Positions 3,001 to 40,334 of a DNA stretch of 64,000 nt are shown one piece after another. The DNA comes from Chitinophagaceae bacterium (lineage in GTDB: Bacteria; Bacteroidota; Bacteroidia; Chitinophagales; Chitinophagaceae). A program made the position numbers and the translations under genes. Numbering within the stretch: position 1 is the first letter of the stretch; each line of letters starts with the position of its first letter. The DNA is taken from positions 1-64,000 of the forward strand of contig CANGNA010000005.1 of the NCBI GenBank assembly GCA_947455215.1. The letters run 5' to 3'. The notes beneath the pieces were generated by a model. The model ran no database searches. It was not told the DNA's origin and worked only from the letters and a program-made list of their open reading frames with translations.

Positions 3001-6000
3001 TGCACTATTCGTTGCCTGGACACTAATATTGCCGGAAACGAGCGGATGAGCTATTGCCTGGTGACAATCAGTTCCAAGGCAGGCAATATCGCCTCCACTC
3101 CACGTATATGTAGTTGCGTCATCAGGTGAAACCAACATAAAAATAACACTATCTCCTTCGCAAACCGTAACTGAGTCTGTAAGCGTATGCACAGAAGGAT
3201 AAGGATAAATGTGGACTGTAAAAATGCTACTTGTATCGGTTCCGATTGTATCTGTCACCGTAAAGTAGAGTTGATCTGTATCAGATGGAGAATAAGTATA
3301 GATTGAATCTGTAGCCAATGCTATCGGACTAAATCCAGAACCAGCTGTACTCTTGAACCATTGATAAGCTATTGCCGGCGGCACGCCCGATGGGCGCACA
3401 GCTACAAATGCCTGTGGTGCGCCTGTAGATGAGTTAGAGCACTGACCGGGGCGTGAAGCAATTGCAGGATAAGCCCGGCCTGCAATTACTGGGATCGCCA
3501 CACTCCGCTCTGTTCCTGCAGTACAACCACGCGCACAATCAGTAATCGACAATATAGTTATCAAATTAGTACCAATTGGTATGGGTGGCATTGGCGTATG
3601 TACATTGGAAATAGTACAGGTATAGGGGCCACCGGTTATAAAATCTGGTCCGGTACCAAAATCTTGATAGTCATACCTGTAGGTCGCGGTCAAACAATGC
3701 CCTGCGGTATACCCAGGACAGAAAATTTCCCATGCTGTACCTCCAAGGTACACAGGAACAGTTTCGGGGAAATATGATGCCGCATTGGAAACAGAAGGCC
3801 ATGGACCATAGCTTGAACAACCGGTAAACGCACTGGTAATGCTTGTTACTGTATAACTTAAATGGCTTTGTGCAGATACAGCTAAAACATACGAGCCACT
3901 TCCTGGAATTATAGCTGTTCTATCTGCGGGAGGCTCAATAACACCATCATATAACACCTGGTAGTGGACAGTAGAATACGGCGTGCCATTGAAATGTAAA
4001 TACGTTATCCCTTCCCAATCGCACGTCTGATCGACAGACGGGAAAACAGTAGGATTACGATTAACGGTTATTGTAGTAGATGCCGTCACTGTGCATGAAC
4101 CACTTGAAGCAACTATTGTATATATTCCAGCGTCTGAGCTCGTAGCCGATGAAGAATTATATGTATAAGACGGCGTACCTGTATGATACGGCAATGTAAC
4201 GTCGGGGTAGGATCCTCCTAAAGTAGATATGTGTTGCAAAATTACGCTGGATGGACATGTAGATGTACAATTGGACTGTATGGAGAAAGCCTGTCCGGCA
4301 CAGACTGAAAATGCAGGTGTAATAGTAACAGCAGGATTGGGGTTGGGGGTGATGGTAAAAGTTGGTCCAGCATCATTATTGGTACAACCATATCCCGTCG
4401 CACTTGTCACCTGATAACTGAACGGTCCTGCACCTGTGGGAACAGGAGTTATCAACAATGTAGTAGTATTAGTAATAGCGGCACCCGAAGGTATCGGCAC
4501 AGTCCAGCTGCCGGTAGTAGGTGAAACACCCTGAATTGTAACCGACCCACCACTTGGTCCTACGAGGGTTAGAGTGAATGGCTGGCCCACACAAGGTTTT
4601 GTACTTGCTGTTATAATACCTGTCGGCTTCTTAACAGTGATATCTATTGTTTGCTTTATGGGGCTACTGCAAAACCCATCAGATACGCTCGACAAATACA
4701 AATGAAATGTCCCTTCCGTTAGTCCCGGGTAATACAAATGACCATCGCCAGAGGCATCAAGTGTTGTGCTAAGCAGGGTACTGAGGAAAAGATCACTGGG
4801 CCGCCTTACATAGTAATAAACTGTTGCACCGGGTGTACCATGCAATGGAATTGTTAAATCGCCCGGGCACATTACCGGAAGAAAACTAACTGGACAAGAA
4901 GCTGTTGGCAAAGGTAATACTGTAACAGAAAACAAAGCTGGTGTCGGGGTGCCACAACCATTATCAGGAGCAGCATATGTGATCGTAGTTGATCCGACAC
5001 TGGCCGCGATAAAGGTTCCTGTAATTGCACCGCCGAAGCCATATGTGTGTACATGATTACCAATAAATGATGGCCCCCAGGTACCCAGCGCATTGCCGGT
5101 TGTAGTATATGTCTGGATTGCCCCGAGGCAAAGCTTATCCGGGCCTGTAATAACTCCAGACGTTGGTGTTGGCATAATAGTGTGCGTATTTACAGCCTGA
5201 ATTTTACATCCAAAGCTGTTGGTGATATCTACTGTTGCCATTACAGGAGTTGGTGCAGTAATAGAAGAGCAAGGCACAGCAGCATGAGTGACCGTCGCAG
5301 CTGTACTTGGCGAGTAAGAAGTAGGGATCCAGGAATAAGTACATCCCGTGCCACAATTCGAGGTATTGGCAGTTATAGACCATGGACTACCACAACAAAT
5401 AGGAGAAGGAGACACATTAAAAGTAACAGATGGTACCGGGTTGGGTTGTAACGTATAAGTGAGTGTAGTAGTGCCTGTATGGGTCAGTTTAATATCATCT
5501 ATAACAAATTCATTGTGAAGATCTTTACCTGTATTCCGCAAATCCTCGAACGTAATTATATCACTTGGATTAATAGTATAATTGCTATTATCTGATATCG
5601 GCTGCCAACCTGAACAACCAGGATTCATGGTCAACATTAAAATTTTGGAAGCGCCAATCTTCACTCTAATTATCGGTCTTTCATCAACCAAAAAACCTAA
5701 ATGCCTGTTGTTAGCTACAGATCGGACACGGCATTCAAAAATGTAATTACCATAACCACTACCAGAAATGTATTGATACAAAAAACGACCTGTGCCGTTT
5801 TTACTTCCGTCAACTGTGAGCATGTTGCCAGTTCCTGTGTTGTAATCTCCAAATGGAGGTAAACAGTCATTGTGACCACAGTCATCGCTGTGGTTAGTTA
5901 CCTGGATCCAGCTTGGTCCGCCACATCCCAGGCTATAGTCTGAGTTCCAGCATGACATTCCATTGTCAAAATTTCCGTTACAAATCAAATTACATGTTGC

Positions 6001-31666: not shown

Positions 31667-33859
31667 ATGGCGAATTTACGTTTTCAGGCACTGCAGGCAT
31701 TGCAGAATGATGAAAAAATCGTTTCCGGCTATAGTGAGAAGAAAGTCACTACTATGTTCGGCAGCAACGTATTTACAGGTCGCACGATGCGCGAACACCT
31801 GAGCGATGAGGCTTACAAGAGCCTCATGAACTCTGCTAAGTCGGGCCAGCGAATAGAACGCCGCATTGCAGACCAGGTAGCTGTAGGCATGAAGGCCTGG
31901 GCGGAAACGCATGGCGTTACTCACTACACGCACTGGTTCCAGCCACTTACCGGCACTACTGCAGAAAAACATGACTCTTTCTTCACTATCAAGAGCGATG
32001 GCACAGCCATCGAACTGTTTGACGGCGAAGCACTGATACAGCAGGAGCCTGATGCATCCAGCTTCCCTAACGGTGGTATCCGTGCCACTTTCGAGGCCCG
32101 CGGCTATACCGCATGGGATCCTTCTTCTCCGGCATTCATTATGGAAGCGGGTTCAGGCAAGACCCTCTGCATCCCTACCATATTCATTGCTTACAACGGC
32201 GAATCGCTGGATCACAAAGCTCCACTGCTGAAGTCGATAGCAGCACTGGATAAGGCCGCAGTAGATGTATGCCACTATTTTGATAAGAATGTAACAAAGG
32301 TAACAGCCACACTGGGCTGGGAGCAGGAATACTTTGTAGTAGACGAAAGCCTGGCCAATGCCCGCCCAGACCTGATGATGTGTGGCCGCACGCTGTTGGG
32401 CCACAGCCCGGCAAAAGGCCAGCAGCTGGAAGACCACTACTTCGGTTCTATACCGGAGCGTGTATATGCCTTCATGCAGGATTTCGAACAGGAGTCTTAC
32501 AAGCTGGGCATTCCATTGCGCACCCGCCACAACGAGGTGGCACCATCACAGTTCGAGTGCGCTCCACAGTTCGAAGAAGTGAACATAGCAGTGGACCACA
32601 ATACCCTGCTGATGGACGTGATGAACAAGGTAGCCAAGCGCCACAAACTGAAGGCCCTGCTGCATGAAAAGCCATTTGCAGGCGTGAACGGTAGCGGCAA
32701 GCACAACAACTGGAGCCTGGCAACAGACACCGGCGTTAACCTGCTGTCGCCCGGCAAAACACCGCGCACCAACCTTATGTTCCTCACGTTCTTCGTGAAT
32801 ACCATCAAGGCCGTACACGATCATGCCGACCTGCTGCGTGGCGCTATTGCTTCTGCTAACAACGATCATCGCCTGGGTGCTAACGAAGCCCCTCCGGCCA
32901 TCATATCCGTATACCTGGGTAAGTACCTCACACAGGTACTGGACGAAGTAGAGTCTCGCGTAAAAGAGAAATTCACAGAGCAGGACGAGGTGATACTGAA
33001 GCTGGACATACACAAACAGCTGCCTGAAGTATTGATGGACAATACCGATCGTAACCGCACCTCTCCGTTCGCCTTTACCGGCAACAAGTTCGAGTTCCGC
33101 GCCGTAGGTTCTTCTGCCAACTGCGGTTCGCCAATGGTAGTGCTCAATACCATCATGACGGATACCCTCCGCAAGTTCAAGAAGGATGTAGATGCATTGA
33201 TAGAAAAGGGCGAGAAGAAAGAGATAGCTGTATTGCAGATACTGCGCAGCTACATCACAGAATCTAAGAAGATACGCTTTGAAGGTGATAACTATAGCGA
33301 AGAGTGGGCTGAAGAAGCTGCACGCCGTGGCCTGAACAACTTCAAAACAACGCCTGAGGCACTGGATGCCTACATCACAGAATCATCAAAGCAATTGTTC
33401 TACGACAATGGCATCTTCAGCAAGCGCGAACTGGAAGCACGTCACGAGATCATGCTGGAAGACTATGTGAAGAAGGTACAGATAGAAGCCCGCGTAATAG
33501 GCTACCTGGCCACCAACCACGTACTGCCCGCAGCTATAGAATACCAGAACGTGATGATCGCTAACGTACGCGGCCTTAAAGAACTGGGCCTGGGTAACGA
33601 AACATACAAAGCCCAGCTGAACCTGCTGACCGTAATGAGCGGCCATATACAGAACATCAACGACAACGTAGAAGCGATGATAGAGGCCCGCAAGAAGGCT
33701 AACAACGAGGAAGACATGCACAAACGTGCACACCTGTACTGCCACGAAGTGAAGCCATTCTTCGACACCATCCGCTACCACGCTGATAAACTGGAACTGA
33801 TAGTAGACGACAAACTGTGGCCACTGCCAAAGTACCGCGAACTGTTGTTTCTGCGCTAA
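31667..33859 (+). CDS. glnN: Glutamine synthetase type III
   Basis: A 730-residue type III glutamine synthetase (ATP + glutamate + NH3 to glutamine), the large form typical of Bacteroidota and cyanobacteria. Signature motifs: GWEQEYF at 217-223 (metal-binding Glu pair), RHNEVAPSQFE at 287-297 and the nucleotide-site NGSGKHNNW at 341-349. Length matches the family (about 700-730). It is monocistronic, with a very AT-rich 100-nt leader and a terminator behind. Confidence 0.97.
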   Translation: MANLRFQALQALQNDEKIVSGYSEKKVTTMFGSNVFTGRTMREHLSDEAYKSLMNSAKSGQRIERRIADQVAVGMKAWAETHGVTHYTHWFQPLTGTTAEKHDSFFTIKSDGTAIELFDGEALIQQEPDASSFPNGGIRATFEARGYTAWDPSSPAFIMEAGSGKTLCIPTIFIAYNGESLDHKAPLLKSIAALDKAAVDVCHYFDKNVTKVTATLGWEQEYFVVDESLANARPDLMMCGRTLLGHSPAKGQQLEDHYFGSIPERVYAFMQDFEQESYKLGIPLRTRHNEVAPSQFECAPQFEEVNIAVDHNTLLMDVMNKVAKRHKLKALLHEKPFAGVNGSGKHNNWSLATDTGVNLLSPGKTPRTNLMFLTFFVNTIKAVHDHADLLRGAIASANNDHRLGANEAPPAIISVYLGKYLTQVLDEVESRVKEKFTEQDEVILKLDIHKQLPEVLMDNTDRNRTSPFAFTGNKFEFRAVGSSANCGSPMVVLNTIMTDTLRKFKKDVDALIEKGEKKEIAVLQILRSYITESKKIRFEGDNYSEEWAEEAARRGLNNFKTTPEALDAYITESSKQLFYDNGIFSKRELEARHEIMLEDYVKKVQIEARVIGYLATNHVLPAAIEYQNVMIANVRGLKELGLGNETYKAQLNLLTVMSGHIQNINDNVEAMIEARKKANNEEDMHKRAHLYCHEVKPFFDTIRYHADKLELIVDDKLWPLPKYRELLFLR

Positions 33860-35590: not shown

Positions 35591-37204
35591 ATGCAACATT
35601 ACAACGATGCACTTTACAAAGATGTACTGACCAACGGCGATCTGCGCAGTAACATTGCCAATATACTTGGCCTGGCGCAAAAAATTGCACAAGTCGGTAT
35701 GTCGGCGCTGGCATTCCCTCATGCAACGCATATGCTGCTTCTTGGAAAAAATGGGTTGCAGGATGTTTTCTTTGATGAACATAACAGCTTATTACCTGTC
35801 GGCCTTAATGAAACGTTTCTTGTACCGGACACCGTTTCAGATCCGCTACATTCCAACAATTCACTTGTGTCCGACTACCTCAATGTGCTTTCCTTTGCCT
35901 CAGTACCTGTGATCAGCCACCGATCAGGACTGATCGCCAACTTGTGCATTATGAGCGACCAGGCAGCAATAGATACCAAGGTCGACCTCTCAACACTGGC
36001 TTTACTGGCTGCCCAACTAACAGAAATATGGGACGATAAACTACAGGTAGCATATGTACGCGATAGACACGACGAAAATAACAGACTAACGGAGGCGGAA
36101 CAGACCTTTAAGCAACAAAGGACATTTTATGAGAACATACTTAACAACCTGCCAATAGATATTGCCGTATTTGACGCAGAACATAAGTACCAGTTTGTAA
36201 ATCCCGGCGCTATATCAGACAAAGAACTACGTGATTACATAGTTGGCAAAGATGATTTTGACTATTGCCGGTTTCGCAACAGGGATGTCTCCGTGGCGGA
36301 AACAAGAAGGGCAATGTTCCTGGACATCAAGAAAACAGGGAAGACACTAAAGTGGGAAGACACGATCACTAATCCGGAGGGAGAGCCAATAACCCACCTC
36401 AGAAGATTCTACCCGGTATATGATGAGGCACAGCAACTGACGATGGTGATTGGCTTCGGAATGGACATTACGGATCGGAAGATCTTGGAGCAAAAACAGA
36501 CAGTACTCCTCCATCAACTCACGATCAAGAACACTCAGCTTGTAGACTTTTGCAATATCATATCACACAATTTACGTGCACCGCTCTCCAACATAGGTAT
36601 GCTTGTTGAGTTAATAACTGCATCGGATGATATCAATGAGCAAAAAGAGTTACTGGCTTATATAAAGCCCTCTCTTACCAACGTGCAAGGTACTTTAGAT
36701 GAACTGGTAGAATCACTGCAGGTAAGCCAGAATAAAGATATTGTCTCAGACCTGAATAATGTGAACAATTGTCTGCAAAAGGTGTTGGCAAGCGTGCAGG
36801 TGCAGCTTACCAGATCTGGCGCTGTTATTGAAACAGATTTTTCTGAAGCGCCGGAAGTACGATTCCCTTCCAGGTACATGGACAGCATACTCCTGAACAT
36901 GGTAAGCAACGCTATTAAATATCAGTCTCCGGTAAGGCCGCTGGAACTGAAGCTAAAAACGATACGAGACAAGAAAGATGTTATCCTATCTGTAACAGAT
37001 AACGGACAGGGGATAGACATGGTTAAGTATGGCGATAAGTTATTTAAGATAGGAAAGGTATTTCACAAGCATCCCCAGGCCAAAGGCTTTGGTTTGTTCA
37101 TGACCAAGAGCCAGGTAGAAGCTATGAACGGCGAAATATGGGCGGAAAGCAAACCCGACGAAGGCACTACCTTTTTTGTGCGATTTACCGACCAGGCAGA
37201 CTAG
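35591..37204 (+). CDS. PAS-domain sensor histidine kinase (orphan)
   Basis: A 537-residue soluble histidine kinase. Residues 1-155 look GAF-like; a PAS domain covers about 178-297 (PIDIAVFDAEHKYQFVNP ... MDITDRKI). The HisKA phospho-acceptor is His326 (NIISHNLRAPLSN), and the ATPase domain has MVSNAIKYQ (N box), VTDNGQGID (G1) and KGFGLFMTKSQ (G2). No membrane segments, so it senses a cytoplasmic signal. No response regulator is adjacent. It converges with the monooxygenase fusion gene with 23 nt between stops. Confidence 0.92.
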   Translation: MQHYNDALYKDVLTNGDLRSNIANILGLAQKIAQVGMSALAFPHATHMLLLGKNGLQDVFFDEHNSLLPVGLNETFLVPDTVSDPLHSNNSLVSDYLNVLSFASVPVISHRSGLIANLCIMSDQAAIDTKVDLSTLALLAAQLTEIWDDKLQVAYVRDRHDENNRLTEAEQTFKQQRTFYENILNNLPIDIAVFDAEHKYQFVNPGAISDKELRDYIVGKDDFDYCRFRNRDVSVAETRRAMFLDIKKTGKTLKWEDTITNPEGEPITHLRRFYPVYDEAQQLTMVIGFGMDITDRKILEQKQTVLLHQLTIKNTQLVDFCNIISHNLRAPLSNIGMLVELITASDDINEQKELLAYIKPSLTNVQGTLDELVESLQVSQNKDIVSDLNNVNNCLQKVLASVQVQLTRSGAVIETDFSEAPEVRFPSRYMDSILLNMVSNAIKYQSPVRPLELKLKTIRDKKDVILSVTDNGQGIDMVKYGDKLFKIGKVFHKHPQAKGFGLFMTKSQVEAMNGEIWAESKPDEGTTFFVRFTDQAD

Positions 37205-37227: not shown

Positions 37228-39162
37228 TTATACTTCCATATTCGTTTTCCATAACGATCCGTTCCGGCTAACGTATTTATCGATCTGCCCACGGAGGTAA
37301 AGATCATTAAGCAAGTCTACCGCTTCATGGGTCGATATATCCATGAAATAGGCAAACTCCTTTGTAGACATAGTATTATACGCCTCGAACAGCACCATAG
37401 GTTCCTTTTCATACTTCCTTCTTTCAGCTCCCGGTATGAATTGCCTGATGATCTGTTCATAGGCTTCATAAGAGCGATATTCTTTTACGCGTACCACCTT
37501 ATCTCCGGATACGAAGAATATAGTTGGAAAGGAGCTCACGTCATATTGGCGGGCCAATTCAAGATCCTCTTTAAATAATACCACCCCATTCCCTTCATAG
37601 TCTCGCCGCAGCCGGGCCACATCAAGCCCTACATCAAATGCGGCATCACGCATCACCTCCCACCTGCCTATATTTTTGTTCTCCAGGAACAGCATTTCCC
37701 TCACCCGGCGTAAAAAAGAGATGGCCATTTCAGCGCCCTGGTTCTGGGCTGCTTTAAATGCTACCGAAGGGGGAAAAGATGATCTGAGCGGATCTTGCAG
37801 CCATACATCGCCCTGCATCGGTATGTCATAAATATCAGCAGCTTCTTCCCAGTAGTATGCAGCATCTATAGGCTCATTTATAGTACCGCTGCTATAGCTC
37901 TCCCACGATGGCAGCAAGCCCCCCATATGATACTTAATGTCCAGGCAATCACCATACTCCAGTTGCAGCCTGCGAAGCTGCGGCTGAATTGTCCAGCAAG
38001 TAGAACAGATAGGATCTGAGAAGTACAACATCCTGACCTTCTCTTTAGGCTTACCCTGCACCGGGCCGCTCTGATAGATCAGTGGGACTGAAATATCTTC
38101 CTCACTTACCTGCATAGGATTAAGAAAATTGGCCTTGAGCTTACGGCCCATGCTCAACTGAGCAGAAAGATCGGTAATTCTAGACAAATAGTATTTTCTG
38201 AACGCTTCTTCAAGCGTATCGCACTCCGCCATGGCTTCCAGCAGTACCTTGGCATCGCGTATAGCGTTGGTAGTTCCTGCACTTGTAAACGGCAATGCCA
38301 GGTGAGCAGCATCGCCTATAAGTACTACATTTTCTTTGTGGAACGTCGGCAGCAGATCAAAATCGCGGGTGAACCAGACATAGGTATTGCTGAAATCGTC
38401 CGATTCGATCACCTCACGGACGACATCCGGAAAACGCCGTGTCATATTCAGGCAGAAAGCCTTTAATGCCTCCGGCGACTTTTCTGTAATATCGCCTATA
38501 GCAGGATCATATTGCATGAACCAGACCACCTCGTCATCGCTGGTAGGTATGAAGCCAAATGCTATACCTTTTACATTACTCTGGAATTTGGTAAAGGTAT
38601 CTTTATACGCACCAACAATTCTGCCGTTACGTGCTACGCCCACAACCTCCTTTACCTCTACAGGGGTAAAATCCGTGGAACCGAAAATACTATTCCTTAC
38701 AAGAGAGTTGCTGCCATCTGCACCTATAAAAACATCACCGTACTCTATATCACCATTTTGAAATACAGCAGCGACCGCTCTGCCATTCTCATACAAAAAT
38801 CCGTCAAATACCCTACCCTCTTTTACGATATCATACGGAACAAGTGAATACAGAAAGTTAATGAACTCAGAACGTTTGATACATTGCCACGGCGCTATCT
38901 TCATATTCATCAGCTCCTTACCGGACGGGCGCTTTAAAACGAATTTATTGATCGTTTTCCCGGGCAAAGGCATATATATTTTCCTGTCTATCTTCTTCAG
39001 CTCATTCAGGATACCAATACCATCATTGTGCATCAGGAAGGCATTACCCCTGGCGGGTATACCTGCCTCCCTTTCACATACCACAACATTGTGCTGCTGC
39101 CTGTATAATAAGGCGCCTGCGGTAATTCCGGCTATACCTCCGCCTATCACAACTACTTTCAT
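37228..39162 (-). CDS. FAD-dependent monooxygenase fused to a DsbA/YjbH-like domain
   Basis: A 644-residue continuous reading frame with two modules. Residues 1-350 are a class A flavin monooxygenase (UbiH/PHBH type): dinucleotide motif GGGIAG at 7-12, the DG motif GADG at 147-150 and the second FAD motif IGDAAH at 282-287. Residues about 374-580 are a thioredoxin/DsbA-like domain with C386-S-T-C389 and a cis-Pro at 546 (SSFPTIFF), with the GGLLPSWESY stretch seen in FrnE/YjbH-like proteins. Residues 585-644 look like a small winged-helix tail. No signal peptide, so it is cytoplasmic. It overlaps the upstream aminotransferase by 4 nt, a tightly coupled operon. I do not know this fusion; it might pair substrate hydroxylation with thiol redox, which is inference. 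Confidence 0.85.
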   Translation of the reverse strand: MKVVVIGGGIAGITAGALLYRQQHNVVVCEREAGIPARGNAFLMHNDGIGILNELKKIDRKIYMPLPGKTINKFVLKRPSGKELMNMKIAPWQCIKRSEFINFLYSLVPYDIVKEGRVFDGFLYENGRAVAAVFQNGDIEYGDVFIGADGSNSLVRNSIFGSTDFTPVEVKEVVGVARNGRIVGAYKDTFTKFQSNVKGIAFGFIPTSDDEVVWFMQYDPAIGDITEKSPEALKAFCLNMTRRFPDVVREVIESDDFSNTYVWFTRDFDLLPTFHKENVVLIGDAAHLALPFTSAGTTNAIRDAKVLLEAMAECDTLEEAFRKYYLSRITDLSAQLSMGRKLKANFLNPMQVSEEDISVPLIYQSGPVQGKPKEKVRMLYFSDPICSTCWTIQPQLRRLQLEYGDCLDIKYHMGGLLPSWESYSSGTINEPIDAAYYWEEAADIYDIPMQGDVWLQDPLRSSFPPSVAFKAAQNQGAEMAISFLRRVREMLFLENKNIGRWEVMRDAAFDVGLDVARLRRDYEGNGVVLFKEDLELARQYDVSSFPTIFFVSGDKVVRVKEYRSYEAYEQIIRQFIPGAERRKYEKEPMVLFEAYNTMSTKEFAYFMDISTHEAVDLLNDLYLRGQIDKYVSRNGSLWKTNMEV

Positions 39163-40334
39163 AAGCTATCCAATGTTTGTTTTATCCTGTATAATCCTTC
39201 GGCCAGTATTTCCCTGTTCGTTGCAAACGATAGCCTTATATAACCTTCAGCACCGGGTCCAAACCACTCTTCTTTACCCGGCACAACTGCCACCCTCGCC
39301 TCTTTCATCAAGAGCTCAGCTATATCTGTGCTGGAGCGTCCGGTAGCAGTGATGTCGGCAAAAGCCACATAACATCCCTCCGGAGGTTGGCAGATCACAC
39401 CCTTTGTGATATTCAGCCCAACTGTGCACAGGTTCCTCATCTCCGTAAGATGCCTTAAAATACCTGTTACCCAATCCTTGCACTCGTCAAGCGCAGCCAC
39501 AGCTGCTATCTGCCCCGCTGTGTTGGCACCGTGTATAGTAGCATTATGCAGCGATGCATCCATAAGTCTGCGATGCATCTCATCGGTAAACGAGGTAAGT
39601 GCACCTATCCGCAGGCCGGCCAGACCATATGTCTTGCTGAATCCTGTAACAATTACGGTGCGTTTTCTTATCGCTTCATCAAGCGATGCTATGCTGGTAA
39701 ACGAATAGGGCGCGAATATGATATCGCTCCATATCTCATCAGAAAGTATCGTAAGGTCATGCTTCACAGCTATCTCCCCCAACACCGTCAATTCCTGCCT
39801 GCTGAATACTTTACCGGTAGGGTTCAGCGGATTGCACAGGCATATGAGTTTTGTTTTAGCGGTTATCAGTTCTTCCAGCCCGTCAAACGTCATTTCGGCT
39901 GTTGTTTGCGGCGTGGCATACCTTACCGCAGTAGCGCCCATCTGCGCTATAGAATACCCAAAAAGAAAATCGACAGGATCAAAGATTATAGCCTCATCGC
40001 CCTTATTCAGCATTGCTTTACACACCACATAAATGCCATAAGCTGCACTGTCTGTAGCTATCACTCGATCTGTATGGGCAGGAACATTACGTTGCTCGTT
40101 ATAAAACCTGGCCATACTCTCCCTGAAAGGCAATATGCCCTCAGCAGGCGCATAAGACCAGTATCGATCGGAGGCATATCTTGCCAGCGCTTCAGCTATT
40201 GGCACCGGCCCCGGGTAATCAGGGTCTGCCGCAGTAAATGGTATCACATCCGCAGGCAATGTAGCCCAACGCAAATTGTACGCACGCTGACGCAACATGT
40301 CCAGGTTGACCCCCTGAGTCACATTTTCATTCAT
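39159..40334 (-). CDS. PLP-dependent aminotransferase, class I/II
   Basis: A 391-residue fold-type I PLP enzyme. The Schiff-base lysine is K234 (GFSKTYGLAG), with CNPLNPTGK at 167-175 and the PLP-binding Asp199 (LSDEIW); a terminal Arg in YIRLSFA binds the substrate carboxylate. It belongs to the aspartate/aromatic aminotransferase group, with some MalY/PatB-like character. It is the first gene of a two-gene operon, and its stop overlaps the start of the monooxygenase-DsbA fusion. That pairing suggests both act on one amino-acid-derived metabolite. Substrate unknown. Confidence 0.88.
   Translation of the reverse strand: MNENVTQGVNLDMLRQRAYNLRWATLPADVIPFTAADPDYPGPVPIAEALARYASDRYWSYAPAEGILPFRESMARFYNEQRNVPAHTDRVIATDSAAYGIYVVCKAMLNKGDEAIIFDPVDFLFGYSIAQMGATAVRYATPQTTAEMTFDGLEELITAKTKLICLCNPLNPTGKVFSRQELTVLGEIAVKHDLTILSDEIWSDIIFAPYSFTSIASLDEAIRKRTVIVTGFSKTYGLAGLRIGALTSFTDEMHRRLMDASLHNATIHGANTAGQIAAVAALDECKDWVTGILRHLTEMRNLCTVGLNITKGVICQPPEGCYVAFADITATGRSSTDIAELLMKEARVAVVPGKEEWFGPGAEGYIRLSFATNREILAEGLYRIKQTLDSL

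Follow-up and report, generated by a model that had tools for sequence, protein, structure and literature searches.

What does a complete homologue of YjbH do when it is joined to a flavoenzyme in a member of the Bacteroidota? To our knowledge, YjbH has been studied almost exclusively as a protease adaptor of the Firmicutes, and we know of no enzymatic role for its thioredoxin active site. The question is raised by a 64,000-nucleotide stretch of Chitinophagaceae bacterium DNA (assembly GCA_947455215.1, contig CANGNA010000005.1, positions 1 to 64,000; hereafter the window), in which a single uninterrupted open reading frame (ORF) with an ATG start encodes a class A flavin adenine dinucleotide (FAD) monooxygenase (residues 1-360) followed by a full-length YjbH/SpxH homologue (residues 371-641), and overlaps the gene of an enzyme dependent on pyridoxal 5'-phosphate (PLP). 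Every part of this arrangement comes from a known superfamily; what appears to be new is the combination of a fused FAD monooxygenase-YjbH (FMO-YjbH) protein with a fixed PLP partner of a separate clade. The first-pass annotation of this DNA had not recognised the pairing, and the literature searched, with most subscription journals outside the search, likewise holds no description of an FMO-YjbH fusion with a fixed PLP partner, nor was YjbH found there joined to a monooxygenase.

Both halves of the protein were recognised by Pfam, FAD_binding_3 (PF01494) at residues 2-313 (E 3e-15) and Thioredoxin_5 (PF13743) at residues 381-570 (E 6e-43), in agreement with the first-pass description of one 644-codon frame that joins a monooxygenase to a DsbA module. 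The second half, described there as DsbA-type and YjbH-like with a winged-helix-like tail, turned out to be a complete YjbH. In a sequence search of solved structures, residues 363-639 could be aligned with Geobacillus YjbH (6ghb, with Spx) from one end to the other (E 7e-39), and in an AlphaFold2 model of the fused protein built from 21 fused sequences (mean predicted local distance difference test score (pLDDT) 86.7, predicted template modelling score 0.81) residues 371-641 superpose on 6ghb_D over 263 residues (27% identity, Z 33.2, root-mean-square deviation 1.8 Å). Because the 6ghb alignment spans the DsbA domain, the CSTC motif, the cis-Pro and the tail, the second half amounts to an entire YjbH, going beyond a thioredoxin fold; the helical insertion of the DsbA/Thioredoxin_5 domain is also present. 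Most of the structural re-ranking is taken up by the monooxygenase half, and it carries no weight on folds other than 6ghb for the YjbH half. A CxxC-bearing DsbA domain and a C-terminal winged helix are common to this protein and Geobacillus YjbH, whereas here they are fused behind an FAD monooxygenase, in Bacteroidota. The protein begins with MKVVVIGGG, a signal peptide is not visible at this N-terminus, and the fused protein is probably cytosolic, as had been proposed.

The three FAD motifs of the monooxygenase half (G7xG9xxG12 with E30, D149-G150, and G283-D284-A-A-H) are all present and invariant among the 21 fused relatives. Residues 1-366 of the model superpose on HpxO (3rp7; Z 36.7 over 345 residues), PhzS (Z 36.2) and TrlE (Z about 36), and a fold of the p-hydroxybenzoate hydroxylase type is predicted on this basis. 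The fold and all the FAD motifs are shared with HpxO, PhzS, PqsL, NicC and TetX, although identity to these proteins is only about 20% and the C-terminal YjbH is particular to the family described here; after the GD motif, the monooxygenase reads TSAG where the outgroup relatives have TSQG. Identity as the HpxO urate hydroxylase was ruled out by a score of 96 against the NF033623 cut-off of 500 bits, and other named monooxygenase subfamilies were ruled out by scores under their cut-offs. At the redox site of the YjbH half, C386 is found in all 29 fused rows of the alignment and in one permuted protein, and C389 in 27 of these 30. Both redox centres of the protein keep their key residues, as first claimed; the CxxC motif has decayed to CSTS or CSAS in L084 and L176. 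Pairing of monooxygenase cysteines with the YjbH CxxC was considered and rejected: C94 and C237 are kept in the fused clade and persist in its YjbH-less members too, and a coupling signal is therefore absent.

The fusion itself is genuine. A sequencing or assembly join at about 38030-38060 and the occurrence of the modules only as separate proteins in close relatives had been named as the ways in which it might be explained away, and both failed on fused relatives of 64, 50 and 48% identity in independent assemblies of the same and other genera; 29 fused homologues in all rule out the join. These 29 stand, together with 13 members of other architecture, in a monooxygenase tree of 42 family members and come from many Bacteroidota genera, the carriers including Emticicia aquatica (CECT 8858) and Pedobacter sp. 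L105, both cultured, as well as metagenome bins under the names Chitinophagaceae, Cytophagales and Flavobacteriaceae; no plasmid-borne copies of the fused protein were found. All FMO-YjbH fusions fall in a single clade of 34 (support 100/100) and, in a tree of YjbH, all fused copies and the permuted one form one clade (96/85) beside the stand-alone YjbH of the Bacteroidota.

The PLP gene lies upstream and ends in ...TTATGA, the last four letters of which (ATGA) also begin the fused gene; this confirms the 4-bp overlap first reported; the two genes are translationally coupled. The PLP gene was found directly beside the monooxygenase in 41 of the 42 family loci; at the sole exception (L089) a PLP-monooxygenase pair is present elsewhere in the same genome. 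The PLP protein at E<=1e-50 occurs in 12 of 101 related genomes, all 12 of which have the monooxygenase family, always adjacent; in one more genome, G065, the contig stops within the PLP gene that adjoins the monooxygenase. Chance neighbourhood is ruled out by this co-occurrence and by the adjacency across the family. Within the fused clade the PLP gene precedes the monooxygenase and usually overlaps it by 1 or 4 bases, and the older FMO-only relatives (L043, L044, L045, L183 and L184) have the reverse order. No further conserved catabolic gene was found in the neighbourhoods of the family loci; promoter and terminator scans returned fewer matches than shuffles and were uninformative.

The label of aminotransferase first given to this partner is less secure and is one of two readings, the enzyme forming a separate clade and being structurally closest to C-S lyases. 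In a tree with true PatBs and 22 class I-gamma aminotransferases, the PLP family forms a clade of its own (100/98), outside the aminotransferases and separated from them by a 100/100 branch, and the clade lies between the PatB/MalY C-S lyases and the class I-gamma aminotransferases. The model of the enzyme (pLDDT 94.9) aligns best with PatB/MalY C-S lyases at Z 48-51 (3l8a_B 50.8, 6qp3_A 50.5), with OvoB (5z0q) eighth and aminotransferases trailing at Z of about 47-48, the lead of the lyases coming partly from longer alignments. The top sequence-profile match is the aromatic aminotransferase 1dju (E 1e-72), and the aminotransferase model and the GntC and PatB profiles score level, all below cut-off; identity as PatB or as the guanitoxin cyclodehydratase GntC (NF041364; 211 against 415 bits) was thus rejected, as was PRK07682, which also scored below cut-off.

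With the PatB/MalY lyases, OvoB included, the PLP enzyme shares a full-length match from residue 1-2 and the motifs ADxDF, CNPxNPxGKV, DEIxSD and AGL, whereas Asp122 and Trp202 replace their Tyr and His and an aminotransferase-type Arg242 is kept. With class I-gamma aminotransferases (1dju, 1j32; 30% identity) it has Arg242, Arg367 and the PLP lysine in common; the motifs DSAA, PVDFLF and DEIW, the last in place of DEIY, and an extra WFG insertion set it apart from them. These features (DSAA or NSAA, PVDFLF, DEIW and the WFG insertion) are unique to the PLP family, and the key residues hold across 31 members of it. Of the lyases and aminotransferases in the comparison, the 26 that are legible at the position of D122 all have an aromatic residue there (L194_PatB is truncated), and Trp202 of DEIW occurs in all family members where the lyases have the His of DEIH and the aminotransferases a Tyr225-type Tyr. 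We take D122 to stand at the PLP-stacking position, and judge the reaction that would result, from general knowledge of fold-type I enzymes.

Four lineages nested within the clade of 34 have no fused YjbH (L090, L096, L180 and the pair L093/L181), a pattern that we read as loss on repeated occasions. In L180 (genome G586), the loss is still in progress, an intact monooxygenase being followed by a decayed YjbH half (about 3950-4430, minus strand) with stops, an internal deletion and YjbH-like stretches left. Outside the clade, a single frame of G076 encodes the two domains in the opposite order, YjbH before monooxygenase, and in L098 (Saprospiraceae) three separate genes, for YjbH, the monooxygenase and the PLP enzyme, follow one another. 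Moreover, G586, L084 and L176 each have an intact stand-alone YjbH as a convergent neighbour, and such a neighbour where the fused half or its CxxC has decayed is expected of a replaceable redox partner; stand-alone YjbH is present genome-wide in three of the five nested YjbH-less members (G757, G586 and G822). Because permuted, separate, lost and decayed arrangements all occur, the monooxygenase and the PLP enzyme are taken as the core and YjbH as an ancient accessory, which can be provided in cis or in trans and which some members seem to do without. YjbH as an essential part of the core is ruled out by the nested YjbH-less members, and the idea of YjbH as an obligate partner of the monooxygenase does not hold for several of its close relatives.

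Stand-alone YjbH proteins of the Bacteroidota (L038-L042, L054-L069 and L156-L169) carry an N-terminal extension with a conserved NPLLCDPxxGxC, often behind a lipoprotein-like leader and an internal Met; because of the leader and the internal Met, some may be exported and some cytosolic. In three of five cases (L038 7819-8130, L040 8005-8364 and L042 7668-7979) the gene adjoining the stand-alone YjbH is a divergent one for an HxlR-like regulator, a hint that thiols or electrophiles might control it. Plasmids of Haloarcula and Halobellus also encode YjbH-like proteins, with about 30% identity along the entire YjbH length. 'YjbH domain' proteins are reported from Bacteroides (PMC10434189) and could not be linked to the FMO-YjbH family.

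The reading that we tentatively favour, at somewhat less than an even chance, is that of a conserved cytosolic oxidative system of the Bacteroidota with the PLP enzyme and the FAD monooxygenase as its core and YjbH as an accessory redox module. The FAD residues, the PLP lysine and, in most members, the CxxC are retained in the family; as none of the three active sites looks damaged, each activity is probably put to use. With NAD(P)H and O2, the monooxygenase would oxygenate a substrate derived from an amino acid or from cysteine; C-S beta-elimination of the oxygenated product, or else its transamination, would fall to the PLP enzyme, and the CSTC site of YjbH would reduce an oxidised sulfur product (a sulfenate or disulfide) or, alternatively, keep the enzymes or the product reduced. 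This substrate, this order of reactions and this direction of thiol chemistry are what we infer from the parts. The chemistry suggested in the first-pass annotation, hydroxylation together with thiol handling or else control by thiol state, is likewise only a candidate. About half of the likelihood given to the oxidative system would go to a more specific version in which sulfoxidation is followed by C-S lysis and sulfenate reduction. EgtE has shown that the sulfenate released by C-S lysis of a sulfoxide will disproportionate if no thiol reduces it (PMC4493562), and a tethered thioredoxin-like domain would fit such a reduction. The succession of an oxygenase, a PLP lyase and thiol reduction of the sulfenate is thus an idea in common with the EgtE/OvoB step of ergothioneine and ovothiol synthesis (PMC4493562), although the oxygenase is a flavoprotein here and a non-heme iron enzyme there, and the likeness is one of analogy only. 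That a flavin S-oxygenase, a C-S lyase of a new PLP clade and a YjbH thiol reductase act sequentially on a cysteine conjugate, YjbH reducing the sulfenate, is for now a doubtful proposal, clearly less probable than the oxidative system in general.

Several observations weigh against such an oxidative system. The PLP enzyme scores 207-208 against the PatB cut-off of 340 bits (TIGR04350), and lyase activity is unproven since R242 is of the aminotransferase type and Asp and Trp replace the aromatic residue and the Tyr or His. The nearest structures to the monooxygenase are ring hydroxylases (HpxO, PhzS, NicC and PqsL) and not S-oxygenases. In B. subtilis and S. aureus, YjbH can drive the degradation of Spx without its cysteines, although Listeria phenotypes require them (PMC7253607), and conservation of the CxxC is therefore by itself no proof of redox catalysis. 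Two of the five nested YjbH-less members (G821 and G823; lineages L090 and L093) have, furthermore, no YjbH anywhere in the genome. Part of this evidence would suit an ordinary aminotransferase working with an aromatic ring hydroxylase, along kynurenine- or indole-pyruvate-like lines in amino-acid catabolism or secondary metabolism, with YjbH merely protecting the flavoenzyme from oxidative damage: the ring-hydroxylase neighbours of the monooxygenase fold, the first rank of 1dju in the profile search and the aminotransferase-like Arg242 and Arg367 would all be accounted for. The preference of the structural alignment for C-S lyases, W202 and D122 in place of Tyr225- and Trp140-type residues, and the want of another conserved catabolic gene nearby do not fit it, and we regard this alternative as unlikely, with a chance that is still appreciable.

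The retention of a whole YjbH, winged helix included and beyond the thioredoxin core, bears on another proposal, in which the YjbH half is a proteolysis adaptor that delivers a partner or the enzyme itself to ClpXP, the fusion tying the enzyme level to redox or substrate state. YjbH acts as an adaptor for Spx in Firmicutes (PMC7253607), and a 45% identical Spirosoma relative is annotated by NCBI as 'ClpXP adapter SpxH family protein'. An Spx with a CxxC switch was not seen in the organism's own genome, however, where the only two ArsC/Spx-family (PF03960) proteins have the leader motifs ACSKSK and GIPNCDTV, both without the switch; the CxxC is kept in 27 of the 30 fused or permuted proteins despite being dispensable for adaptor function in two Firmicutes, and the lipoprotein-like leaders on many stand-alone Bacteroidota YjbH are a misfit for ClpXP. 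We would rate the adaptor as rather improbable, a shade more so than the ordinary aminotransferase and hydroxylase. Considerably less probable again is a signal module, in which a linked soluble GAF/PAS histidine kinase and a single-domain response regulator would sense a small molecule that the PLP enzyme and the monooxygenase produce or remove. Such a kinase adjoins the fused gene in the window, and orthologues of it, 50-60% identical in the PAS-histidine kinase region, stand with a response regulator upstream of the PLP gene in six loci (L050, L080, L088, L093, L171 and L181), the only one scanned (L080) having a GAF domain; in G007 a kinase-regulator pair lies about 25 kb from the PLP-monooxygenase locus on the same contig. 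The kinase is present at only a minority of loci, and close homologues occur without the enzymes in G009 and at G000:C23, the latter (G000:C23:3323-4927) being a 72% identical paralogue. The linkage suggests that the kinase regulates, or is regulated by, the PLP-monooxygenase system in part of the family only.

Also in the window, a type III glutamine synthetase-like protein of about 730 residues is encoded at 31667-33859 on the plus strand, some 3.4 kb away from the fused gene. In G065 the gene immediately next to the monooxygenase encodes a homologue of it (L047 6171-8405), which may be coincidence. Coordinates of the features are collected in Table 1.

Table 1. Features of the FMO-YjbH locus, in positions of the window.
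Feature	Position	Strand	Evidence
FMO-YjbH bifunctional gene, 644 aa	37228..39162	-	ORF, Pfam, 6ghb alignment, model
FAD monooxygenase domain, residues 1-360	38083..39162	-	PF01494; HpxO Z 36.7 over 345 residues
FAD motif 1 GGGIAG, residues 7-12	39127..39144	-	G7, G9, G12 invariant in 21 fused proteins
FAD motif 2 ADG (DG motif), residues 148-150	38713..38721	-	D149, G150 invariant
FAD motif 3 GDAAH (GD motif), residues 283-287	38302..38316	-	invariant
Inter-domain linker, residues ~361-374	38041..38082	-	pLDDT <50 at 367-371; variable in alignment
YjbH DsbA/thioredoxin-like domain, residues 375-577	37432..38040	-	PF13743; 6ghb alignment
Redox motif CSTC (C386, C389)	37996..38007	-	alignment of 29 fused rows and permuted protein
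cis-Pro site P546	37525..37527	-	P546-T547 invariant
YjbH C-terminal winged-helix tail, residues 578-644	37231..37431	-	6ghb alignment reaches residue 641
PLP fold-type I enzyme, 391 aa	39159..40334	-	Pfam, profile scores, model, tree
ATGA stop/start overlap of PLP gene and fused gene	39159..39162	-	same overlap in most relatives
Predicted PLP Schiff-base lysine K234	39633..39635	-	invariant in 31 family members
D122 of PVDFLF, Asp at usual aromatic PLP-stacking position	39969..39971	-	invariant in family
Soluble PAS histidine kinase, convergent, ends 23 bases from fused gene	35591..37204	+	PAS and histidine-kinase domains

Taken as a whole, the family points to a system for the handling of sulfur or amino acids that still awaits description. 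The reaction of the PLP partner cannot be read from known families, and the fusion, with its mostly intact CxxC and its fixed partner, offers a direct handle on the role of the YjbH active site, so that it could be within reach to define both what YjbH does and a pair of enzymes new to science. Were the sequential sulfur chemistry to prove true, the ancestral task of YjbH would have been the reduction of small-molecule or protein thiols, and not the delivery of Spx to ClpXP.

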